DNA from: Pantoea sp. RIT-PI-b
Lineage (GTDB): Bacteria > Pseudomonadota > Gammaproteobacteria > Enterobacterales > Enterobacteriaceae
Length of the DNA: 64,000 nt
NCBI RefSeq assembly: GCF_001187905.1
Contig: NZ_LGIS01000025.1
Span: 62,001-126,000 of the forward strand
Direction: 5' to 3'
How positions within the stretch are numbered: position 1 is the stretch's first letter; every line of letters begins with the position of its first letter. The notes beneath the pieces were generated by a model. It saw only the letters and a program-made list of their open reading frames with translations. It ran no database searches and was not told where the DNA came from. The position numbers were made by a program, and so were the translations under genes. Below are positions 4,487 through 28,306 of this stretch, one piece after another.

Positions 4487-4545
4487 CAGGGTGCCATGAA
4501 TGGCACCCCTACGGTTGTTTAGTAGGGGCGCCATTTATGGCGACC
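4487..4545. repeat. Paired palindromic repeats between avtA and the MocR gene
   Basis: Two palindromes lie between convergent genes: GGGTGCCATGAATGGCACCC at 4489-4508 and a GGCGCC-ATTTAT-GGCGACC unit at 4526-4545, joined by CTACGGTTGTTTAGTAG. The arrangement (stem, CTAC, spacer, GTAG, stem) is the inverted-pair form of the family seen at 628-737. It may also stop transcription from both sides. Confidence 0.75.
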
Positions 4546-4551
4546 GCTGCA

Positions 4552-5985
4552 TTACGTCGCTGGCAGCGACAGCTGGCACCACTGCGCCAGCTGCTGAATC
4601 GCCTGATCCACTTCAGCATTCCAGCCAAAACCGGCATTCAGTCGGAAACAGTGATCGTAACGGTGATCGGTGGCGAAGATGTGTCCCGGCGCGATACCGA
4701 TGCCGGCGTTGCGCGCTTTGAGAAACAGCGCGCGTACATTCAACGCGCCCAATGGCATTTCCACCCATAACACATATCCCCCTTCGGGATCGGACACGCG
4801 CGTGCCCGGCGGGAAGTAGCGCAGCACCGCCTGGCGCATATGCTGGATTTGATTCTTCAGCTCGCGCCGCAGCTTGCGCAAATGGGCGTCGTAGCCGCCG
4901 CTGCGCAGCAGTTCGGCTATTGCCGCCTGCGATAGCACGGACGTCCCCATGCTGGTGGTGTATTTCAGCGAGGCGATTTTGCGCATGTAGTTGCTGCTGT
5001 GCACCCAGCCGATACGTATGCCGGGCGCGACCGTTTTTGAGAAGCCGCTGCACAAAATGGCATTGGGGCTAAAGGCGCGCATCGGGAACGGGCGGCGCTC
5101 GCCAAACGCAGTATCGCCGAAGATATCATCCTCGATGATCACCACATCATTCTCATCGGCCTGGCGCGCGATATAGGCTTTCTGTTCGTTGGGAATGCTT
5201 TTGCCAAGCGGGTTGTTGATGTTGTTGATGGTCAGATAGGCCTGCACCGCTTTGCGCTGAAACAGCGCCGTCAGCTTCTCCACATTGACGTAGCCCGCCG
5301 GGCCCGCCTCCACTTCAATCACCCGCAGATTGAGGTTATGCAGCATCTGCAGCAGCACAAAATAGCAGGGTGATTCCACCGCCACGATGTCGCCGGGCCG
5401 CGTGGTCGCACGCAGCGCCAGCGAAATCGCCTCGATGCAGCCGTTGGTGATCAGGATGTCATCGGCATTGATATTGCAGCCATAATCCACCGCCCGGCGG
5501 GCAATTTCCGTTTTCAGCGGCATATAGCCGGTGCCTTTAACGGTGTTGCCCAGCAGCGCCGGTTTGCTATAGCCCATCTGGCGCATCAGCAAGCCGATCT
5601 TCTTCACCGGATAAAGCGAAATATCACCGTTGGCCAGATCGAGCCTGACGCGGCAATCCGAACCAAGCATCGCCAGATGCAGCTCAGTTTGCTCGTCGAG
5701 CGGCGCGACTTCGCGCGCTTGCTCAGCGATCGCCACGGGAAAAACGTTATCCGCCTTACGCGGCGCGACAAAAAAGCCGGACTTGGGGCGCGCCACCGCG
5801 TAGTGCTCATCCTCAAGCGTGCGTAATGTTTTGAGCGCGGTGGTCATGCTGACGCTGTACTGCGTCGCCAGCGTGCGCACCGAAGGTAGACGACTGTCGG
5901 GCGGCAGCGAACCGCTGTGAATGGCTTGTTTTATCTGCTCTGCGATTTGACGGTAACGACTGCCCTGTTCCGTTTCACCCGCCAT
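4552..5985 (-). CDS. MocR-type regulator (GntR HTH fused to aminotransferase fold)
   Basis: A GntR-type winged helix-turn-helix (about residues 10-75, SRLPSVRTLATQYSVS) is followed by a fold-type I aminotransferase domain. The predicted PLP lysine is Lys317 in SGFSKTVAPGIRIGW, with NNPLG and IIEDDIF as PLP-contact motifs. MocR proteins bind PLP or PLP-amino-acid adducts to control transcription. The ATG at 5985 is chosen because AGGGTGG lies 5 bases upstream; a GTG at 6024 would add 13 residues. It is divergent from the six-gene operon starting at 6199, so it is the obvious candidate regulator. That fits an amino-acid-derived product or precursor as signal. Target and ligand are inferred. Confidence 0.88.
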   Translation of the reverse strand: MAGETEQGSRYRQIAEQIKQAIHSGSLPPDSRLPSVRTLATQYSVSMTTALKTLRTLEDEHYAVARPKSGFFVAPRKADNVFPVAIAEQAREVAPLDEQTELHLAMLGSDCRVRLDLANGDISLYPVKKIGLLMRQMGYSKPALLGNTVKGTGYMPLKTEIARRAVDYGCNINADDILITNGCIEAISLALRATTRPGDIVAVESPCYFVLLQMLHNLNLRVIEVEAGPAGYVNVEKLTALFQRKAVQAYLTINNINNPLGKSIPNEQKAYIARQADENDVVIIEDDIFGDTAFGERRPFPMRAFSPNAILCSGFSKTVAPGIRIGWVHSSNYMRKIASLKYTTSMGTSVLSQAAIAELLRSGGYDAHLRKLRRELKNQIQHMRQAVLRYFPPGTRVSDPEGGYVLWVEMPLGALNVRALFLKARNAGIGIAPGHIFATDHRYDHCFRLNAGFGWNAEVDQAIQQLAQWCQLSLPAT

Positions 5986-6198
5986 CTGTTCCACCCTATT
6001 TCGTGCTGATCTGTGCGTTTTCACCAGATTACATTCAAAGTACTTTAGGCTGCATCAGTTAATTGTTAGCTCAGCGCAGGCGTTGCCGTTGCGCTTCCCA
6101 GTGAAAAATTCATTCCGTAGCACCTTCGTGGCCCATTTCCCGACTGTTACCGTCAGCACGGCAATAGCGATTTTATTAGCCAAAGGATGAAGTGAAAA
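5986..6198. promoter_or_regulatory. Divergent control region between the MocR gene and the biosynthetic operon
   Basis: This 213-bp non-coding stretch separates the divergent regulator and operon starts. AAAGGATGAAGTG before 6199 supplies the ribosome-binding site of the first operon gene. AT-rich segments near 6030-6070 and 6160-6180 could hold promoters facing each way, but I could not assign -35/-10 boxes with confidence. MocR operators are usually direct or inverted short repeats in such regions; none is certain here. Confidence 0.5.
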
Positions 6199-7665
6199 AT
6201 GAATAATCTTTCCACCATGATGAGAGACATTGAAGGATATCTCACCCCCACGATTATCGATTCAGCTCAGCACTGCGCACGCCGTTTACTTGCCGCCCTC
6301 CCCGATGCCGCACAGCCGGAAAATAACCGCGTGCTGCTGGCCTACGGCGGCGGCAAAGACAGCAGCTACATGGTGGCATATGTCCGCTACATTCAGGGAC
6401 TGATCTGGCAACAGCACGGCAGCACCTTTCAACTGCGCATCAGCACTAACCGCCATGCGGCGATGAACGACAGCGTGATGGAGAATATCGATCGCGTGTA
6501 TCGCGCATTGCATATCTTTGAAGATGATTTCACCGAATGTCTGGTGACCGATGGCCTGCAAATCCGCCACTTCGATCGCCATCTACCCATGCCGGACAGC
6601 GTGCGCCAGCAGAATCGCAACGATGTGCTGATGAATGGCCACCGCTTCCGCGCCGATGCCCGCTCCACCTTTTGTAATGCCTGTAACCTCAGCATGGTGA
6701 ACTCGTTTGGCCTGGCGGCGCATTACGACGGCGGCGTTGATGTGATCATCACCGGCGATTCGCCGCAGGAACAAACCGCTTATCTCGCCTGGGCGCGCCA
6801 TCTTTCGCGTCTGTTTGCCGCGCCGGTGGCGGATAAATCGCGCGGCTTTAGCGGCTTTTTGCAGACGCTGGATGGCGTGGCCGAGCGCTACTTCGCCGAT
6901 ATTTACGGCGCCGATCAGGTGACGCCCGCGCACCGCATTACCTGGCAACTGGCACGCGATCCACTGTTCTTCAACATCTATCAGGACACCGCCTATGAAG
7001 CCGGTGCGCACTGGGCGCTGCTGACTGAATTTATGCATTTCCGCTTTGATGAACTGATGTTCAGCTTTTCCGAATCGGACTGCGGTAACCCAACGTTAAT
7101 GGCACATATTCGCGGTCTGCGTGCGGAGACGCTGCTGCAGCGTAACTACGCCGAAGGCATTCGCGAATATGTGCGCTTTGCGCTTGGGCTGATGGTGAAA
7201 AAGGATTTCCCGCCGCAGCTGATCGATGAGATGGCGGCACGTTATCAGGACGATGAGGCGATTAAGCGCGCCCGCCAGCGCGCGGCGCACTTCGCCGAGC
7301 AGGCATTTGGTCTGAATGAAACCCAGCTGATTTGCATGATCTATTCGCCGTTTATCGCCGAAGGACAGCAGCTGAAAAACTGGCTTCAGCAGTTGGTCGA
7401 TGGGCCGGATGAAGCTGCGGTGCGCGCGCTGTTGCGCGGTGAAAGCGACGATCGGTTACTGGCACAGCAGCTTGAGCAACTTTCTGGTTTGACCGTCGCG
7501 CAGATGCGCCACTGCTGGCGCAGCGCACAGGTGAGTTCACTGCTGGACGATCGGCGCGGCGATGCACTCTCACGCGTGCTGCGTTTTGATCCGCACAAAG
7601 CAGTGATTCAGGTGAATAACGGCGTGATGCACGACGTCGTCACTGAAGTGATCTCCGGGCGTTAA
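6199..7665 (+). CDS. PP-loop (N-type) ATP pyrophosphatase, biosynthetic operon gene 1
   Basis: This 488-residue protein carries a PP-loop, YGGGKDSS, at residues 49-56. That is the ATP-pyrophosphatase motif of asparagine synthetase, GMP synthetase, TtcA and TilS. A CNAC pair (Cys159, Cys162) followed by TGDSPQE near 185-191 resembles the Cys-x-x-Cys and TGH.xD.xE positions of the TtcA/Ctu1 branch. Such enzymes adenylate a carboxyl, carbonyl or nucleobase oxygen so that N or S can attack. The ~230-residue helical C-terminal part matches nothing I recognise. It opens a tight plus-strand operon (17 bp to the next gene). A class II glutaminase two genes later could feed it ammonia, as in asparagine synthetase B. 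Its substrate is unknown. Confidence 0.75.
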   Translation: MNNLSTMMRDIEGYLTPTIIDSAQHCARRLLAALPDAAQPENNRVLLAYGGGKDSSYMVAYVRYIQGLIWQQHGSTFQLRISTNRHAAMNDSVMENIDRVYRALHIFEDDFTECLVTDGLQIRHFDRHLPMPDSVRQQNRNDVLMNGHRFRADARSTFCNACNLSMVNSFGLAAHYDGGVDVIITGDSPQEQTAYLAWARHLSRLFAAPVADKSRGFSGFLQTLDGVAERYFADIYGADQVTPAHRITWQLARDPLFFNIYQDTAYEAGAHWALLTEFMHFRFDELMFSFSESDCGNPTLMAHIRGLRAETLLQRNYAEGIREYVRFALGLMVKKDFPPQLIDEMAARYQDDEAIKRARQRAAHFAEQAFGLNETQLICMIYSPFIAEGQQLKNWLQQLVDGPDEAAVRALLRGESDDRLLAQQLEQLSGLTVAQMRHCWRSAQVSSLLDDRRGDALSRVLRFDPHKAVIQVNNGVMHDVVTEVISGR

Positions 7666-7682
7666 CCCGGTAAGGCAACGCG

Positions 7683-8960
7683 ATGAGAAAGATTTTCCTG
7701 CAGATCGGCGCCACTCGCGACGGACAAAATCCGTACTGTGCGGTGGCCAAACGCGACGGCTATTTTACCGTGCTGGCGGAAATGGGCGATTTCGTCGATT
7801 ACCAATCGCTAAGCATTGCGTTGCCGTTCGATCTGATTGTGCGGCTCGATCGCCCGGAAAATCCGTGGGATGTGCTGCAAGCCTGTTTGCATGCCGGGCT
7901 GATGGAACATCCTCATGTGGTGCTGGCGGGTTTTGAAGCTTACAACGCCAGCGCCGGTCGCGTGCGCGAGCTGCTGGCGGGACCCGATGCCGGGGCGAGC
8001 TTTATTCCACCGGATAAGTACGCACAGCGCATGGCGTTGCGCAAAGCCTGGCAACGCTTCCCACAGCCGGAGTTTCGTTTCTTCGCTTCGCCGCTCAGCA
8101 TCCGCGACGCGCGTGATGCCTTGCTTTATCCCTGCGTGATCAAGCCGGTTGACGGCGGTGGCGGTCTGGGTATCTGGCTGGTCAAAGAAGCCCGCCAGCT
8201 GGATGCGGTGATTGGCAAGCTGGTCGATACCATGAACTACGGCGGGCGCGGCTTCAGCGGCTTTATCGTCGAGAGTTGGCTGGCCGGCGATGAGTATTCG
8301 CTGCAAGGCGTGGCGGCGGACGGCCATGCGCTGGCGCTGACCTGCTGCCAAAAGGTGATCGAACATCACACCGATGCCGACGGCTGCGTCAGTTTTTACG
8401 AGTCCGGCCATGTGGCGGTCGCGGCGCAGCAGCTGCCTGCCAGCTTCTCCAGCCTGATGAGTTTCTGCTGCGAAACCTTTGGCTATCGTCAGGGCGCATT
8501 TCACATCGACTTTATTGTAGTGAATGGCGAACCGCACTTTCTCGAAATGGGCTTCCGCCTTTCGGGCATGGGCGTGGTGAATCTGGTGCAGGAAGTGACC
8601 GGCATCAACTGGGCTGAAGTGGCGTTTCACATCGAAGCCGGTCACGGCATGCCGCCGCTGCATTTCCCGCCGCAGCCGCTCGCGGTGGGCCGGGTACGCC
8701 TGCGCCAGCGCCAGCAGTATGACGCGGCAGAACGCTGGATCGCGCAGCATCAGCGCGGTCAGCTGTTGCCGCCGCTCAATCTGCCCACGCTGGCCGTTTC
8801 ACCGCGCTCTTCTCTCTATGCAGATTTAACCCGTCACGCCGGAATTCTGGCGACCTTACGCCTTGCGGCCGCGAACCGCGACGAGATTCTGGCGGTATTT
8901 CATCAGATTCTTGAGGTCTCATCGCTCACCACCAAGAGGGATTTACTATGTGCAGAATGA
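7683..8960 (+). CDS. ATP-grasp carboxylate-amine ligase, biosynthetic operon gene 2
   Basis: This 425-residue protein has an ATP-grasp core. CVIKPVDGGGGLGIW near residues 151-165 holds the ATP-binding lysine and glycine-rich loop. GDEYS near 202-206, FHIDF near 273-277 and FLEMGFRLSG near 287-296 supply the Mg/ATP acidic residues; the usual E-x-N is E-x-G here. ATP-grasp ligases activate a carboxylate as acyl-phosphate and join it to an amine, as in bacilysin-type dipeptide synthesis, so it probably makes an amide or peptide bond in the pathway product. TAAGG precedes the ATG. The 3' end overlaps the next gene by 13 bases, which implies translational coupling. Confidence 0.8.
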   Translation: MRKIFLQIGATRDGQNPYCAVAKRDGYFTVLAEMGDFVDYQSLSIALPFDLIVRLDRPENPWDVLQACLHAGLMEHPHVVLAGFEAYNASAGRVRELLAGPDAGASFIPPDKYAQRMALRKAWQRFPQPEFRFFASPLSIRDARDALLYPCVIKPVDGGGGLGIWLVKEARQLDAVIGKLVDTMNYGGRGFSGFIVESWLAGDEYSLQGVAADGHALALTCCQKVIEHHTDADGCVSFYESGHVAVAAQQLPASFSSLMSFCCETFGYRQGAFHIDFIVVNGEPHFLEMGFRLSGMGVVNLVQEVTGINWAEVAFHIEAGHGMPPLHFPPQPLAVGRVRLRQRQQYDAAERWIAQHQRGQLLPPLNLPTLAVSPRSSLYADLTRHAGILATLRLAAANRDEILAVFHQILEVSSLTTKRDLLCAE

Positions 8961-9655
8961 TTGTGGCGCACGGCCAATTTGACGCCGCCGCAGTGCTGGA
9001 TGCAGCCCGCGCCATGAGCTGTGGAGAAACCGCCACCCATGAAGGGCCGATCAAACAGCATCCCAACGGCTGGGGTTGTTTATGGCTGGAGCAAGGACAC
9101 ATTCGCACGCTGCACGGCACCGGCACCTTCGCCGATGCGCTGCCGACCATCGATGTTGACCGCCTGCGCGGTCGTTTTCTGGCGGTGCATGTGCGCCACG
9201 CTACGCTGAGCAAAAATCACGGTATCGAATTTTCCCACCCGCTGTGGCGCACCAGCGGCGCAACCCAGTGGTACATGATGCATAACGGGTTTTTGCCCAC
9301 CGTCTACCAGCAGCTGGGCATGGCGGAGTCGCACTTTGATTCTGCCGAATACCTCGAATACATGGTAGATCGCGCCACGCCCGCGGATTTTACCCGCGAT
9401 TATCTGCGCAACAAGATGGCGCAGGTGGCGCCGGGCGGCAGCTCTGCCAACGCGATTTTTGTCACCCGCGATAAAGCCTGGGCATGGCAATGGCATCCCG
9501 ACGATACGCCCTATCCCACCTATTTCACGCTGCACCGTTTCCAGAATGACAACACGACGTTTATCTCTTCTGAACCCATTTCAACACTAGGCACGGCGTC
9601 TGAATGGCGTCGCATGAGCAACCATGAACTTCATGAATTTCCTTTAGGGGAGTGA
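8948..9655 (+). CDS. Class II glutamine amidotransferase, biosynthetic operon gene 3
   Basis: This 235-residue stand-alone N-terminal-nucleophile amidotransferase domain begins Met-Cys, so Cys2 becomes the nucleophile once Met is removed. NGWG (near 38), VRHAT (near 79) and HNGF (near 113) are the glutamine-binding and oxyanion motifs of the YafJ/EgtC-type class II group. AAGAGGG before the ATG and the 13-base overlap with the ATP-grasp gene support the start. Such proteins hydrolyse glutamine for ammonia or cleave gamma-glutamyl amides, as EgtC does. With a PP-loop ATPase in the same operon it could be the glutaminase half of a split AsnB-like amidating enzyme. Hydrolase of a gamma-glutamyl-protected intermediate is the main alternative. 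Confidence 0.82.
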   Translation: MCRMIVAHGQFDAAAVLDAARAMSCGETATHEGPIKQHPNGWGCLWLEQGHIRTLHGTGTFADALPTIDVDRLRGRFLAVHVRHATLSKNHGIEFSHPLWRTSGATQWYMMHNGFLPTVYQQLGMAESHFDSAEYLEYMVDRATPADFTRDYLRNKMAQVAPGGSSANAIFVTRDKAWAWQWHPDDTPYPTYFTLHRFQNDNTTFISSEPISTLGTASEWRRMSNHELHEFPLGE

Positions 9656-9660
9656 TCAAC

Positions 9661-10461
9661 ATGGCTATTTTCAATCAGATACGCATTATCAATCCTGACA
9701 TGTTTGTGGAAAGCACCTGGCTGGATGACATCGTGACGGCGCGCGTGCCGCTGCTGGTTTTACGCAACTTTCTGACGCCACAGGTGCGGGAAGCCGTGGT
9801 CGACGATTTGCAGCAGTGCCGCGAACAGGTCCGCGTATCGCACTATCCAAACGGTGCGTTGACCACGCTCGGCCCCTATCTGGCAAAGCATACTGCCGCC
9901 CCCGAAAACTACTTCACCGAACTGCGCGATATTCAGTCGGCGCTGCCGCCGTCGCTGCACTGCCTGCGCGATCAAATCTATAACTGGGTGAAGCACGCGC
10001 TGCGCCTGGAGAGTCTGCAAACCGCCAGCGAACCCGATCTGGGCGATTACGCCGGTTCGATTGTGCGCTTCCACGCCAACGGGGTCGCCAATCCCCTGCA
10101 TAACGACAACATCGTGCGCGATGCCGCCGGCAGCGGATTGACGGTGACTAACATCTTGCATCAGCTGAGCTGCGTAGTGTGTTTGCAGGAGTGCAATGCA
10201 GGTGGCGAGCTGCGCATCTTCAATAAGCAGTGGCAGCCGGTAGATGAACGTTTCAAAACGCCGGGCGAACTGGGTTATCAAAGCGGCGTCATCGCGCACA
10301 GCGAGGTGTGTGAGTTCTCACCGCGCAGTGGCGATATCTATCTGTTTAACCCGGCTTTTTATCACGAAATTGATCGCGTGGAAGGCGACACGCGCATCAC
10401 CATGGGCTTCTTCTTTGGCCTGACCGACAAAAAAATGAAACACGCCATCGCCTGGAGCTAA
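9661..10461 (+). CDS. Fe(II)/2-oxoglutarate-dependent oxygenase, biosynthetic operon gene 4
   Basis: This 266-residue protein has a full 2-oxoglutarate oxygenase metal triad: His147 and Asp149 in PLHNDN, His235 in FYHEIDR, with Arg245 in TRITMGF as the likely 2-oxoglutarate carboxylate clamp. The layout (GSIVRFHANG before HxD; SGDIYLFNP before the distal His) is that of prolyl-4-hydroxylase-like enzymes, which hydroxylate, desaturate or epoxidise amino acids. The ATG at 9661 is chosen because AGGGGAG lies 8 bases upstream; a GTG at 9652 overlapping the previous stop is possible. Within this operon it probably oxidises an amino-acid building block or the ligated product. Confidence 0.85.
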   Translation: MAIFNQIRIINPDMFVESTWLDDIVTARVPLLVLRNFLTPQVREAVVDDLQQCREQVRVSHYPNGALTTLGPYLAKHTAAPENYFTELRDIQSALPPSLHCLRDQIYNWVKHALRLESLQTASEPDLGDYAGSIVRFHANGVANPLHNDNIVRDAAGSGLTVTNILHQLSCVVCLQECNAGGELRIFNKQWQPVDERFKTPGELGYQSGVIAHSEVCEFSPRSGDIYLFNPAFYHEIDRVEGDTRITMGFFFGLTDKKMKHAIAWS

Positions 10462-10489
10462 CGCCAGGTTTTTAGACGAGGAGACGAGC

Positions 10490-10990
10490 ATGAATACCTA
10501 CGAAAAAATTACTGCGCTGCTGGATCAGCATCAGGCGCGCTATCGCGTGGTGGAACATGAAGCTATCGGCCAAACCGACCTGATCAGCGAAATTCGCGGC
10601 AACGATCTCAATCAGGCGGCCAAGGCGATGGTGCTGGAAGTGACGATGCCGGATGGTGCCGATGCGCGTTACCTGCTGGCGATTGTGCCAGGCGACTGCA
10701 AGATCAACTTCAAAAGCGCCGCGCGCGCTATTGGCGGCAAGAAGTCGAGCTTTGCACCGCCCGAGAAAGCGCAGGAGTTAACGCAGTGCGTGATGGGGGC
10801 GGTGCCGCCGTTTAGTTTTGATGATCGGCTGGCGCTGCGTGTCGATACGCGGCTGCGCGATGTCGGCACGCTGTGGTTCAACGCCGGCGCCTTAGATCGC
10901 TCCGTTGCGTTGCAGGTGGATGATTTTTTTCAGGTTGTCGGTGATGAATGTTGTGCCGAGATCGCGACACCGGTGACGGCAACCGCCTGA
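10490..10990 (+). CDS. YbaK/ProX-type aminoacyl-tRNA deacylase domain protein, operon gene 5
   Basis: This 166-residue single-domain protein belongs to the YbaK/INS trans-editing family. The conserved lysine is near residue 45 (AAKAMVLEV), and GAVPPFS near 103-109 is the family glycine-proline signature. GGKKSSFAPPEKA fits the substrate loop. Relatives hydrolyse mischarged aminoacyl-tRNAs (Cys-, Ala- or Ser-tRNA). GGAGACGAGC precedes the ATG, and only 28 bp separate it from the oxygenase gene. Position inside a biosynthetic operon suggests protection against misincorporation of an amino-acid analogue made by the pathway; that role is inference. It differs from housekeeping ybaK in sequence and context. 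Confidence 0.8.
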   Translation: MNTYEKITALLDQHQARYRVVEHEAIGQTDLISEIRGNDLNQAAKAMVLEVTMPDGADARYLLAIVPGDCKINFKSAARAIGGKKSSFAPPEKAQELTQCVMGAVPPFSFDDRLALRVDTRLRDVGTLWFNAGALDRSVALQVDDFFQVVGDECCAEIATPVTATA

Positions 10991-11011
10991 TCGCGGCAGT
11001 AAGGAATCTGT

Positions 11012-11917
11012 ATGTCAGTCAAAGATATGTTGTTAGCCCTGCTGGTTGTGGTGGCGTGGGGCGTGAATTTCGTGGTGATCAAGCTGGGTTTGCAGGACAT
11101 GCCGCCTTTCTTGCTGGCGGGGCTGCGTTTTAGCCTAGTGGCGTTTCCGGCGATCTTGTTTGTTAAACGTCCGGCAATTCCGCTGCGCTGGCTGGTGGTC
11201 TACGGCATGACCATCAGCTTCGGGCAGTTCGCCTTTCTGTTCCTTGCCATCAAACTCGGCATGCCGGCGGGACTGGCGTCGCTGGTGCTGCAGGCGCAGG
11301 CATTTTTCACCCTGCTGCTTGGCGCGCTGTTCCTGGCGGAGAAGCTGCGCTGGAATCACATCGTCGGCATTTTAGTGGCGACGCTCGGCATGTTTATGCT
11401 GGCGACCGCCGGCATGGAAGGGCAAACCACGGCGGGCATAACGCTGACCACCATGATGCTGACGCTGGCCGCGGCGCTGTCGTGGGGGCTTGGCAACATC
11501 ACCAATAAAATCATTTTGCGTAACCGCAAGGTGCCGGTGATGTCGCTGGTAGTGTGGAGTGCGCTGGTGCCGGTAGTGCCGTTCTTTGCCTGCTCATGGC
11601 TATTTGATGGCGAAGCATCGATTATTACCAGCCTGCTGAACATCTCGCTGCAAACGGTGCTGGCGCTGATCTATCTCGCCTTTATCGCCACCATTGTGGG
11701 CTACGCGATCTGGGGCAATTTGCTCAGTCGCTACGAAACCTGGCGCGTGGCACCGCTGTCGCTGCTTGTACCGGTGGTGGGCATCCTCAGCGCAGCGTTG
11801 ATTCTCGGCGAGACCTTGTCGATCCAGCAGATGATCGGTGTGGCGGTGATCATTCTGGGTCTGCTGGTGAATGTGTTTGGTGGCATGGTCAGTCAGCGCT
11901 TATTGGTGCGAACCTGA
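11012..11917 (+). CDS. EamA/DMT-family exporter, operon gene 6
   Basis: This 301-residue inner-membrane protein has ten predicted helices in two EamA repeats. The first starts at LALLVVVAWGVNFVVIKLG; the second covers about 150-290, with SWGLGNITNKI at its start. DMT carriers of this kind commonly export amino acids and related metabolites (RhtA, EamA, YdcZ types). TAAGGA lies before the ATG, and 21 bp separate it from the deacylase gene. It is last in the operon and followed by a strong shared terminator at 11934-11962. It is the likely efflux and self-resistance component for the pathway product; the substrate is unknown. Confidence 0.85.
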   Translation: MSVKDMLLALLVVVAWGVNFVVIKLGLQDMPPFLLAGLRFSLVAFPAILFVKRPAIPLRWLVVYGMTISFGQFAFLFLAIKLGMPAGLASLVLQAQAFFTLLLGALFLAEKLRWNHIVGILVATLGMFMLATAGMEGQTTAGITLTTMMLTLAAALSWGLGNITNKIILRNRKVPVMSLVVWSALVPVVPFFACSWLFDGEASIITSLLNISLQTVLALIYLAFIATIVGYAIWGNLLSRYETWRVAPLSLLVPVVGILSAALILGETLSIQQMIGVAVIILGLLVNVFGGMVSQRLLVRT

Positions 11918-11933
11918 CGTTTATCACACACAT

Positions 11934-11962
11934 AAAAAAACGCCGCGTTATGCGGCGTTTTT
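11934..11962. terminator. Bidirectional terminator between the exporter gene and ibpA
   Basis: The stem ACGCCGC/GCGGCGT has a TTAT loop, with a run of A on the left and T on the right. It therefore works as an intrinsic terminator for both convergent transcripts. Confidence 0.9.
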
Positions 11963-14377: not shown

Positions 14378-14435
14378 GGTCGCCATAAATGGCGACCCTA
14401 CAGCAAGGTTTGTAGGGTGCGCATTCATGCGCACC
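14378..14435. repeat. Inverted pair of palindromic repeats between yidR and dgoT
   Basis: GGTCGCCATAAATGGCGACC plus CTAC at 14378-14402, then GTAGG and a TGCGCATTCATGCGCACC unit to 14435. Same stem-CTAC-spacer-GTAG-stem design as at 4487-4545 and 28231-28306, but the second stem has drifted (GCGCAT instead of CGCCAT) with both arms changed together. It ends 8 bases before the dgoT stop codon, so it also forms the 3' end of the dgo transcript. Confidence 0.8.
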
Positions 14436-28230: not shown

Positions 28231-28306
28231 CTTGTAGGGGAGCCATTAATGGCTCCCAGGATGGTGCGAACATTCGCCAGGTCGGCATAAATGCCGACCT
28301 TACAAG
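28231..28306. repeat. Inverted palindrome pair inserted at the dnaN-recF junction
   Basis: Outer arms CTTGTAGG (28231) and CCTTACAAG (to 28306) enclose two stems, GGGAGCCATTAATGGCTCCC and GGTCGGCATAAATGCCGACC, so the whole unit can fold as a cruciform. The right arm covers the dnaN stop codon and the codon before it. It belongs to the same family as 628-737, 4487-4545 and 14378-14435. Confidence 0.8.

Follow-up and report, generated by a model that had tools for sequence, protein, structure and literature searches.

In a window of 64,000 nt from Pantoea sp. RIT-PI-b (the whole stretch of DNA analyzed; contig NZ_LGIS01000025.1), six plus-strand genes spanning positions 6199-11917 formed an operon headed by the gene for PPl, a PP-loop-type ATPase of a family without description. 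We consider the chances about even that this operon makes and exports a nitrile-bearing non-protein amino acid or short peptide without forming free cyanide, a proposal drawn from gene context. It builds on direct observations of the gene set, of its conservation and linkage, of conserved catalytic residues and of the partners of PPl in other types of gene cluster. In relatives, asparagine synthetases and a nitrilase similar to plant NIT4 were found beside PPl, and this company suggests that PPl converts an amide into a nitrile. Such chemistry has precedent, because PP-loop enzymes include ATP-dependent nitrile synthetases. The features of the locus were the following.

4552..6024, minus strand: MocR-type regulator (GntR helix-turn-helix and aminotransferase-like domain), divergent from the operon (PF00392, 58 bits; PF00155, 101 bits)
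5984..6014, no strand: candidate operator, putative in function, with direct repeats ATCTGT at 5984-5989 and 6009-6014
6199..7665, plus strand: PPl, PP-loop-type ATPase of a family without description, proposed nitrile-forming enzyme (invariant residues, PP-loop profile match)
7683..8960, plus strand: ATP-grasp ligase (PF02655/PF13535; closest solved relative, L-amino acid ligase BL00235, 3vot_A, 45 bits)
8948..9655, plus strand: stand-alone class II glutaminase-like protein with Cys2 as nucleophile (PF13230)
9661..10461, plus strand: 2-oxoglutarate (2OG)/Fe(II) oxygenase of the WelO5/HilA group with an HxD...H triad (PF22814, 75 bits)
10490..10990, plus strand: predicted YbaK/ProX-like aminoacyl-tRNA editing protein (PF04073, 76 bits)
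11012..11917, plus strand: predicted EamA-family exporter related to the O-acetylserine/cysteine exporter (NF008523, 396 bits; cut-off, 472)
11936..11962, no strand: terminator hairpin (11-bp stem, A/T ends) between the convergent ends of the EamA gene and an IbpA-like gene

Judged by its sequence, PPl groups with the PP-loop enzymes as an ATPase whose family has no description. It matched nothing in Pfam or NCBIfam, and PDB sequence searches with PPl, as a single sequence and as a profile, gave chance-level matches only. In profile comparison (hhalign), its AYGGGKDSS segment lined up with the loop that binds ATP in TilS (P = 1.5e-5, HH probability 80%), QueC (P = 0.0023, 12%) and AsnB (P = 0.0025, 12%), whereas seven non-PP-loop control families gave P = 0.016 or worse; a motif filter left 18 of 30 loci for the TilS profile and 15 of 30 for the AsnB profile. 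These values were far weaker than those among the known families themselves (QueC-TilS, 3e-46; QueC-AsnB, 7e-10; TilS-AsnB, 1e-6), and PPl is therefore a remote PP-loop branch. Its SGGxDS-type loop and profile similarity place it among the PP-loop ATPases, and the label "PP-loop ATPase" in the original prediction was upheld by GGGKDS in 56/56 sequences and by the TilS match, although no Pfam family applied. Three narrower assignments were rejected: QueC (PF06508 was missing from the Pfam matches of PPl and, even at E = 10, from those of 23 A1 members), asparagine or beta-lactam synthetase (PF00733 was not matched in Pfam scans) and the "PqqD family", a label carried by PPl relatives in some sources (no PqqD model was among the matches). 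PPl further differed from the known ATP-dependent nitrile synthetases (QueC/ToyM, ArtA/NitB and PesC) by an invariant CxxC...C...H set of its own and by the fixed Gly-Arg at its C-terminus. The search with PPl gave 446 matches among 8000 scored candidates.

GGGKDS, C159, C162, C295, H271, H303 and the C-terminal Gly-Arg were invariant in 56/56 sequences from all cluster types. The Gly-Arg directly preceded the stop codon in 55/55 loci, which hints that the C-terminus of PPl is perhaps part of the active site. The invariant C159-xx-C162 and C295 could also hold an iron-sulfur cluster or a persulfide, in which case PPl would be a sulfur-transfer enzyme turning an amide into a thioamide. Precedents for sulfur transfer are the TtcA/Ctu1 thiolases, YcfA (6-thioguanine) and CtaC (closthioamide), and both the YbaK-like and the EamA proteins belong to cysteine-related families. 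However, H271 and H303 were just as invariant, as expected of a zinc site, no sulfur-mobilizing partner was recognized among the classified neighbors (a subset of all neighbors), and a thioamide would leave the linked nitrilase unexplained. We regard the thioamide as very improbable.

Besides the Pantoea-type arrangement (type A), at least four PPl-centered cluster types (B, C, D and E; L058-L100, L130 and L133) were seen, each with its own partner enzymes. Of 122 confirmed loci, the best 80 were used to assign types, together with 12 regions of the family of genome G060, five of which repeated earlier loci; the types were named by neighbors (B, HMGL and AsnB; D, MutE; E, NIT4 and ATP-grasp). 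A quick tree of 56 PPl sequences, made without use of the neighbors, grouped them by neighborhood: types B, C and D were each one clade with a support of 100, type A needed four changes and type E two. Placement of L056, L072, L089, L091, L095 and L098, on long branches, was unsure. The tree included L035, L041, L044, L047 and L049 as its only Enterobacterales and omitted L093 and L096 (near-copies of other Pseudomonas loci), L094, L132 and the partial match of G268.

Asparagine synthetases, called with profiles built in this analysis at 50 bits or more, were present in the flanks of 27 of the 34 tree loci that were neither type A nor type E (AsnA in 14, AsnB in 13). This count and the clade counts are the fairer measure, because full counts of type-defining genes are partly a product of the definitions. 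In clade B (12 loci), an HMGL-type aldolase, a fumarylacetoacetase-like protein, an adenylation-carrier protein, an AsnB-like synthetase (12/12) and a thioesterase stood beside PPl, and 7/12 loci had a protein with a leucyl-tRNA synthetase (LeuRS) editing domain as its sole Pfam match (one copy scanned). All 9 loci of clade D had AsnA and both glutamate mutase subunits, MutE and MutS; the AsnA model NF005054 (cut-off, 309) was reached by both type D copies scanned (L092, 324.0; L100, 309.1). Clade C (8 loci) contained an N-monooxygenase in 6, a methionyl-tRNA synthetase (MetRS)-like protein in 7, AsnA and MutE in 5 and MutS in 4; the N-monooxygenase and the MetRS-like protein presumably represent a hydrazine-type pathway. 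Of five unclassified loci, one had AsnB.

The smallest set was that of Methylobacter L100, which starts at a contig end and consists of AsnA, MutS, PPl, MutE and EamA, with MocR opposite; PPl is the only enzyme of this minimal set without an assigned step. The same gene order was repeated on plasmid NZ_CP091425.1, where the next upstream gene was unrelated and on the other strand, and Salinisphaera L098, also at a contig end, had the L100 set plus PanB. The simplest reading of L100 and L098 is a route from glutamate to 3-methyl-aspartate and 3-methyl-asparagine, followed by the action of PPl on that amide. On the Methylobacter plasmid, a likely vehicle of spread, the type D operon (L224; NZ_CP091425.1, 41599-55065) had an ISAs1 transposase and a group II intron as neighbors.

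Further evidence came from the nitrilase. A NIT4-like nitrilase was near PPl in 8 loci, which comprised 3/16 of type A and all 5 of type E, a type that the nitrilase helps to define; some actinobacterial and one chloroflexotan relatives had PPl beside such a nitrilase. In type E (L077, L078, L082, L089 and L095), the set was reduced to PPl, ATP-grasp and nitrilase, with YbaK in addition in L077, and in type A L055, L057 and L123 the nitrilase stood beside YbaK. In L089, nitrilase and PPl were on the same strand. The one PPl-linked nitrilase compared (L095) was far closer to Arabidopsis NIT4 (361 bits) than to the next solved nitrilase (154 bits), and it fell short of the Nit6803-family model (TIGR04048; 188 bits, cut-off 503).

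In the family of Streptomyces sp. RPT161 (394 genomes), the nitrilase (E up to 1e-60) was found in 6/14 genomes with PPl and in 13/380 without it (Fisher test, P = 1.3e-5, a value that ignores relatedness); at most five candidates per genome were scored in the listed rows. Of the six genomes containing PPl and nitrilase, four (G060, G086, G098 and G095) had the two within 15 kb on one contig, for which the chance is approximately 0.4% per genome, the 15-kb limit having been chosen after the distances were seen. Because three of the four are close relatives, they are not independent events. G095 is a type B genome, with 12.5 kb between PPl and the nitrilase.

Several observations weigh against a nitrile. 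The three invariant cysteines of PPl would suit a sulfur-transfer enzyme as well. No asparagine synthetase was found in the flanks of the type A and type E loci (0/21), so free asparagine must be assumed as the substrate there, and none was seen in those of 3/8 type C and 4/5 unclassified loci (7/34). No nitrilase was near 13 of the 16 type A loci; a nitrilase of the NIT4-like clade was found neither in the operon nor elsewhere in the genome of the window (best identity, 31%), and the activity of the bacterial copies is a predicted one. NIT4-like genes were present in 13 genomes without PPl, the two genes were far apart in G187 and G458, the latter with an internal stop in the nitrilase, and in Myxococcus G062 the nitrilase copy was located outside the PPl locus. 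NIT4 acts on beta-cyanoalanine, and the reliance of the argument on this specificity also belongs on this side. Finally, if the oxygenase hydroxylated the beta carbon adjoining the nitrile, an unstable cyanohydrin would result.

The original prediction had pointed to amide bonds made by ATP-grasp and PP-loop enzymes. A view of amide formation by the PP-loop enzyme as the central chemistry was not sustained, as asparagine synthetases of their own were present in many relatives and NIT4-like nitrilases in several, and amide-bond formation is probably not the key step. A corresponding alternative without a nitrile would have PPl and the glutaminase form a side-chain amide, the ATP-grasp enzyme join two amino acids and the oxygenase tailor the product as an amide or dipeptide antimetabolite. 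A PP-loop protein beside a class II glutaminase does resemble a split asparagine synthetase, the best solved relative of the ATP-grasp enzyme is an L-amino acid ligase, and no other asparagine synthetase was found near PPl in types A and E. In types B, C and D, however, PPl lacks this glutaminase as a partner, and most of their loci have an asparagine synthetase for the purpose; PPl is therefore not needed there to make the amide, and the linked nitrilase would have no explanation. We regard this alternative as unlikely.

The nitrile proposal extends beyond Pantoea. We suggest tentatively, and with somewhat less confidence than for the operon itself, that PPl is the common enzyme of a large unrecognized family of ATP-dependent nitrile synthetases. 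With asparagine-type amides as substrates, this family would form cyano-amino acids in five or more cluster architectures, distributed over Pseudomonadota, Myxococcota, Actinomycetota and Chloroflexota. The products would be beta-cyanoalanine in types A and E and 3-methyl-beta-cyanoalanine in types C and D, their toxicity countered by tRNA-editing proteins or the nitrilase. In Pantoea, a hydroxylated nitrile-bearing residue giving a cyanohydrin could even be a new route of cyanide release. The ATP-dependent nitrile synthetases named in the available parts of one preprint are QueC/ToyM and the argininosuccinate- or asparagine-synthetase-like ArtA/NitB and PesC; the same parts call auranthine the only nitrile-containing peptide natural product before the preprint's own find (PMC13060819). 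PPl would share with these enzymes the PP-loop-type use of ATP and, in its proposed reaction, an amide as substrate or intermediate, and it differs from them in its linkage to free amino-acid pathways. Nitrile-installing enzymes are few, and if the proposal is true, a PP-loop-type family with hundreds of members in compact clusters would be a source of nitrile-forming enzymes and cyano-amino-acid products. It would also explain an operon of most Pantoea genomes for which no description was found.

The type A module was not confined to Pantoea. Outside Enterobacterales, 11 loci had the PPl, ATP-grasp, glutaminase and oxygenase genes in this order, so the gene set is not a product of chance. These loci were from Myxococcus (L053 and L064), Micromonospora (L059), Azospirillum (L056), a gamma-proteobacterial metagenome-assembled genome (L072, with one other gene between PPl and ATP-grasp) and Streptomyces and its family, Streptomycetaceae (L054, L055, L057, L060, L123 and L125; L057 and L123 were near-identical). 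The same module was found in Hafnia, and YbaK-like and EamA genes were usually included. Across 16 type A loci (these 11 and five Enterobacterales representatives), the glutaminase was present in 16, the oxygenase in 16, the YbaK-like protein in 15 and EamA in 13; in actinobacterial loci having EamA, the gene was divergent and approximately 1.5 kb upstream. Loss of linkage in related genomes, which the original prediction had named as a check, was not observed, the order being kept in Enterobacterales and in the 11 outside loci. In Pseudomonas fragi L094, PPl was split, and ATP-grasp and YbaK genes were not found at the locus.

Within the proposed pathway, PPl would spend ATP on activating asparagine at its side-chain amide, with loss of water, to give beta-cyano-L-alanine; for types A and E, asparagine itself is the presumed substrate, and beta-cyano-L-alanine or its peptide the presumed product. 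The ATP-grasp enzyme would couple the cyano unit, or asparagine before its conversion, to another amino acid. Its subfamily (>400 bits to its own profile) was common to 16/16 type A and 5/5 type E relatives, and its assignment as the dapdiamide synthase DdaF (NF041595) was rejected (38.1 bits, cut-off 840). The class II glutaminase-like protein, in which C2, R83, N113, G114 and D131 were invariant in 15/15 relatives, would either supply ammonia or remove a gamma-glutamyl group, the latter in a protect-and-release scheme with the ATP-grasp enzyme; it matched GATase_4 and was below the cut-off of the EgtC gamma-glutamyl hydrolase model (TIGR03442; 18.7 bits, cut-off 219).

The oxygenase would hydroxylate the product, its substrate being predicted from context and its motif observed. 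H150, D152, H238 and R248 (numbered from GTG 9652) were invariant in 15/15 relatives, L060 with its split oxygenase reading having been left out of this residue check. In WelO5-type halogenases, an HxG facial pair leaves room for chloride; the HxD...H triad marks this protein as hydroxylase-type, and a halogenase was rejected on the HxD found in 15/15, although PF22814 itself was matched. From the starts of relatives, ATG 9661 is the more likely start codon than GTG 9652. The YbaK-like protein (K45 invariant in 14/14 relatives) would clear tRNAs mischarged with the product as self-protection. It matched the broader tRNA_edit family (PF04073) and scored 59 bits against the Cys-tRNA deacylase model TIGR00011 (cut-off, 153). 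Predicted tRNA-editing proteins recurred, YbaK-like in 15/16 type A and 1/5 type E loci and with a LeuRS editing domain in 7/12 type B loci, a recurrence that counts in favor of the nitrile proposal. Whether free-standing tRNA-editing proteins in biosynthetic clusters mark translation-threatening products is a general question open to testing. EamA, which by its score appears related to the O-acetylserine/cysteine exporter (395.7 bits for NF008523, below the cut-off), would export the product, and the MocR protein, as a binder of pyridoxal phosphate, would sense an amino acid of the pathway.

Among 60 relatives searched, PPl was matched in 30 of 36 same-genus genomes (own genome included) and in 0 of 24 other genomes of the order. 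The 30 matches consisted of 28 full-length genes, one gene in three pieces (G003) and one 32-residue remnant (G014). A set of 394 genomes of the order gave 3 real matches, all in the same genus, and one weak, stop-filled match. The closest named loci were those of P. endophytica and Pantoea sp. SOD02 (PPl identity, 96%). Beyond the genus, PPl was present in single records, namely Hafnia (L049) and proteins named Yersinia, Serratia, Citrobacter and Salmonella. The gene avtA was on the same stretch in 32/33 Enterobacterales loci, the exception being Hafnia. All seven genes were complete at the length cut-offs in 25/33 of these loci; of the others, L045 was truncated where its contig ended, the loci of a stink-bug symbiont (L046) and of Candidatus P. 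persica (L052) were decayed, and five had one or two broken genes. By this distribution, the operon has long been part of the genus and occurs sporadically elsewhere.

Two full Pantoea-type loci with the same neighbors came from records of Enterobacter ludwigii EnVs2 (L022; PPl identity, 95%) and E. cancerogenus M004 (L025; 91%), which may be misnamed. L051 had approximately 5 kb of extra DNA between avtA and the regulator, and L029 and L031 had approximately 2 and 4.5 kb between EamA and the IbpA-like gene, in loci otherwise fixed. An origin from a plasmid or from E. coli was rejected: in the plasmid DNA search with the operon, the EamA end alone matched, and 6199-9655 matched no E. coli record. 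The protein search of plasmids with PPl found one Methylobacter plasmid.

This distribution also bears on the idea that the product of a similar route serves the genus as a house metabolite (to store nitrogen, as a signal or as an osmolyte) and is no antimetabolite. The 28/36 same-genus genomes with full-length PPl and the avtA linkage favor it, and the decay in the stink-bug symbiont and Ca. P. persica fits a free-living role. However, PPl was patchy elsewhere (14/394 genomes of a Streptomyces family and 1/301 in a sample of a chloroflexotan phylum; the 394 genomes of the order gave no convincing match beyond the genus), and a tRNA-editing protein suggests a toxic amino acid. A house metabolite is decidedly unlikely in our judgment. 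The original prediction of a small amino-acid or dipeptide antimetabolite pathway is plausible. Its biosynthetic part stood, with a conserved, co-inherited gene set, an exporter and a MocR regulator; "antimetabolite" keeps its tentative status, because the operon is in most genomes of the genus and is not a rare accessory antibiotic island.

No described pathway or operon with this gene set was found in a literature search that had most subscription journals outside its reach. The dapdiamide cluster is alike in its host, Pantoea, its small amino-acid or dipeptide logic and its ATP-grasp ligase (DdaF), and to our knowledge it has no PPl, YbaK or glutaminase; the statement that the operon does not match this set agreed with the ATP-grasp score of 38 of 840 bits for DdaF. 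In Streptomyces cattleya, the Bes (beta-ethynylserine) and Fth (fluorothreonine) pathways make a toxic amino acid with an ATP-grasp enzyme and a 2OG oxygenase, or protect against one with a trans-editing tRNA deacylase and an EamA-type exporter. We know of no PP-loop enzyme and no nitrile in either. The PNP-1 cluster of P. ananatis BRT175 has a similar divergent GntR-aminotransferase regulator and a terminal transporter. It was rejected as the same set, for it differs in all but these two in the parts compared, which are short of its full gene table; it names a carbamoyltransferase, an aminotransferase and a formyltransferase, and none of the six Pantoea operon genes was seen in those parts (PMC4010436). 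Type C loci resemble the MetRS-cupin clusters, in which, by the available parts of the description, a PP-loop gene is among the variable parts; judged by that description, the gene stands close to asparagine synthetase, a relationship that Pfam does not show for PPl (PMC2922099).

All seven genes of the locus were open frames at the expected positions. The close packing originally described was confirmed, with gaps of 17 bp between PPl and ATP-grasp, 5 bp between glutaminase and oxygenase, 28 bp between oxygenase and YbaK and 21 bp between YbaK and EamA, and an overlap of 13 bp between the ATP-grasp and glutaminase genes. So were the divergent GntR-aminotransferase regulator (PF00392 and PF00155 on the minus strand) and, from Pfam matches and invariant residues, the ATP-grasp, class II glutaminase, HxD...H oxygenase, YbaK-type and EamA identities. 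The Pfam domains were GntR and aminotransferase class I/II, ATP-grasp_3/4, GATase_4, WelO5/2OG-Fe(II)-type oxygenase, tRNA_edit (YbaK/ProX) and EamA. The closing terminator was as strong as had been claimed: its 11-bp stem (11936-11946/11952-11962) had a z of -4.1, none of 200 shuffles was equally stable, and the hairpin was not among the entries of a consensus scan. The consensus promoter scan was at background level (5 found, 5.8 expected), and its result was not used.

The start codon of the MocR gene is either GTG 6024 or ATG 5985, and if it is 6024, the candidate operator block is partly coding; both ATCTGT repeats were identical across 33 aligned rows. The MocR protein was below the cut-off of every one of the 25 NCBIfam families listed. 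The G+C of the operon genes was 0.57-0.60, compared with 0.55 for the window. The upstream gene is avtA (valine-pyruvate transaminase), and the downstream neighbor is putatively named IbpA-like.

A palindromic element similar to repetitive extragenic palindromic (REP) sequences (GTAGGGGCGCCATTTATGGCG) was observed at window positions 4492-4542 and also at 631-734, 14381-14401 and 28234-28254. The window had 7 copies at three mismatches or fewer (0 expected), and a slightly shorter pattern, at one mismatch or fewer, had 149 copies in the genome, compared with 0 for the reversed control.

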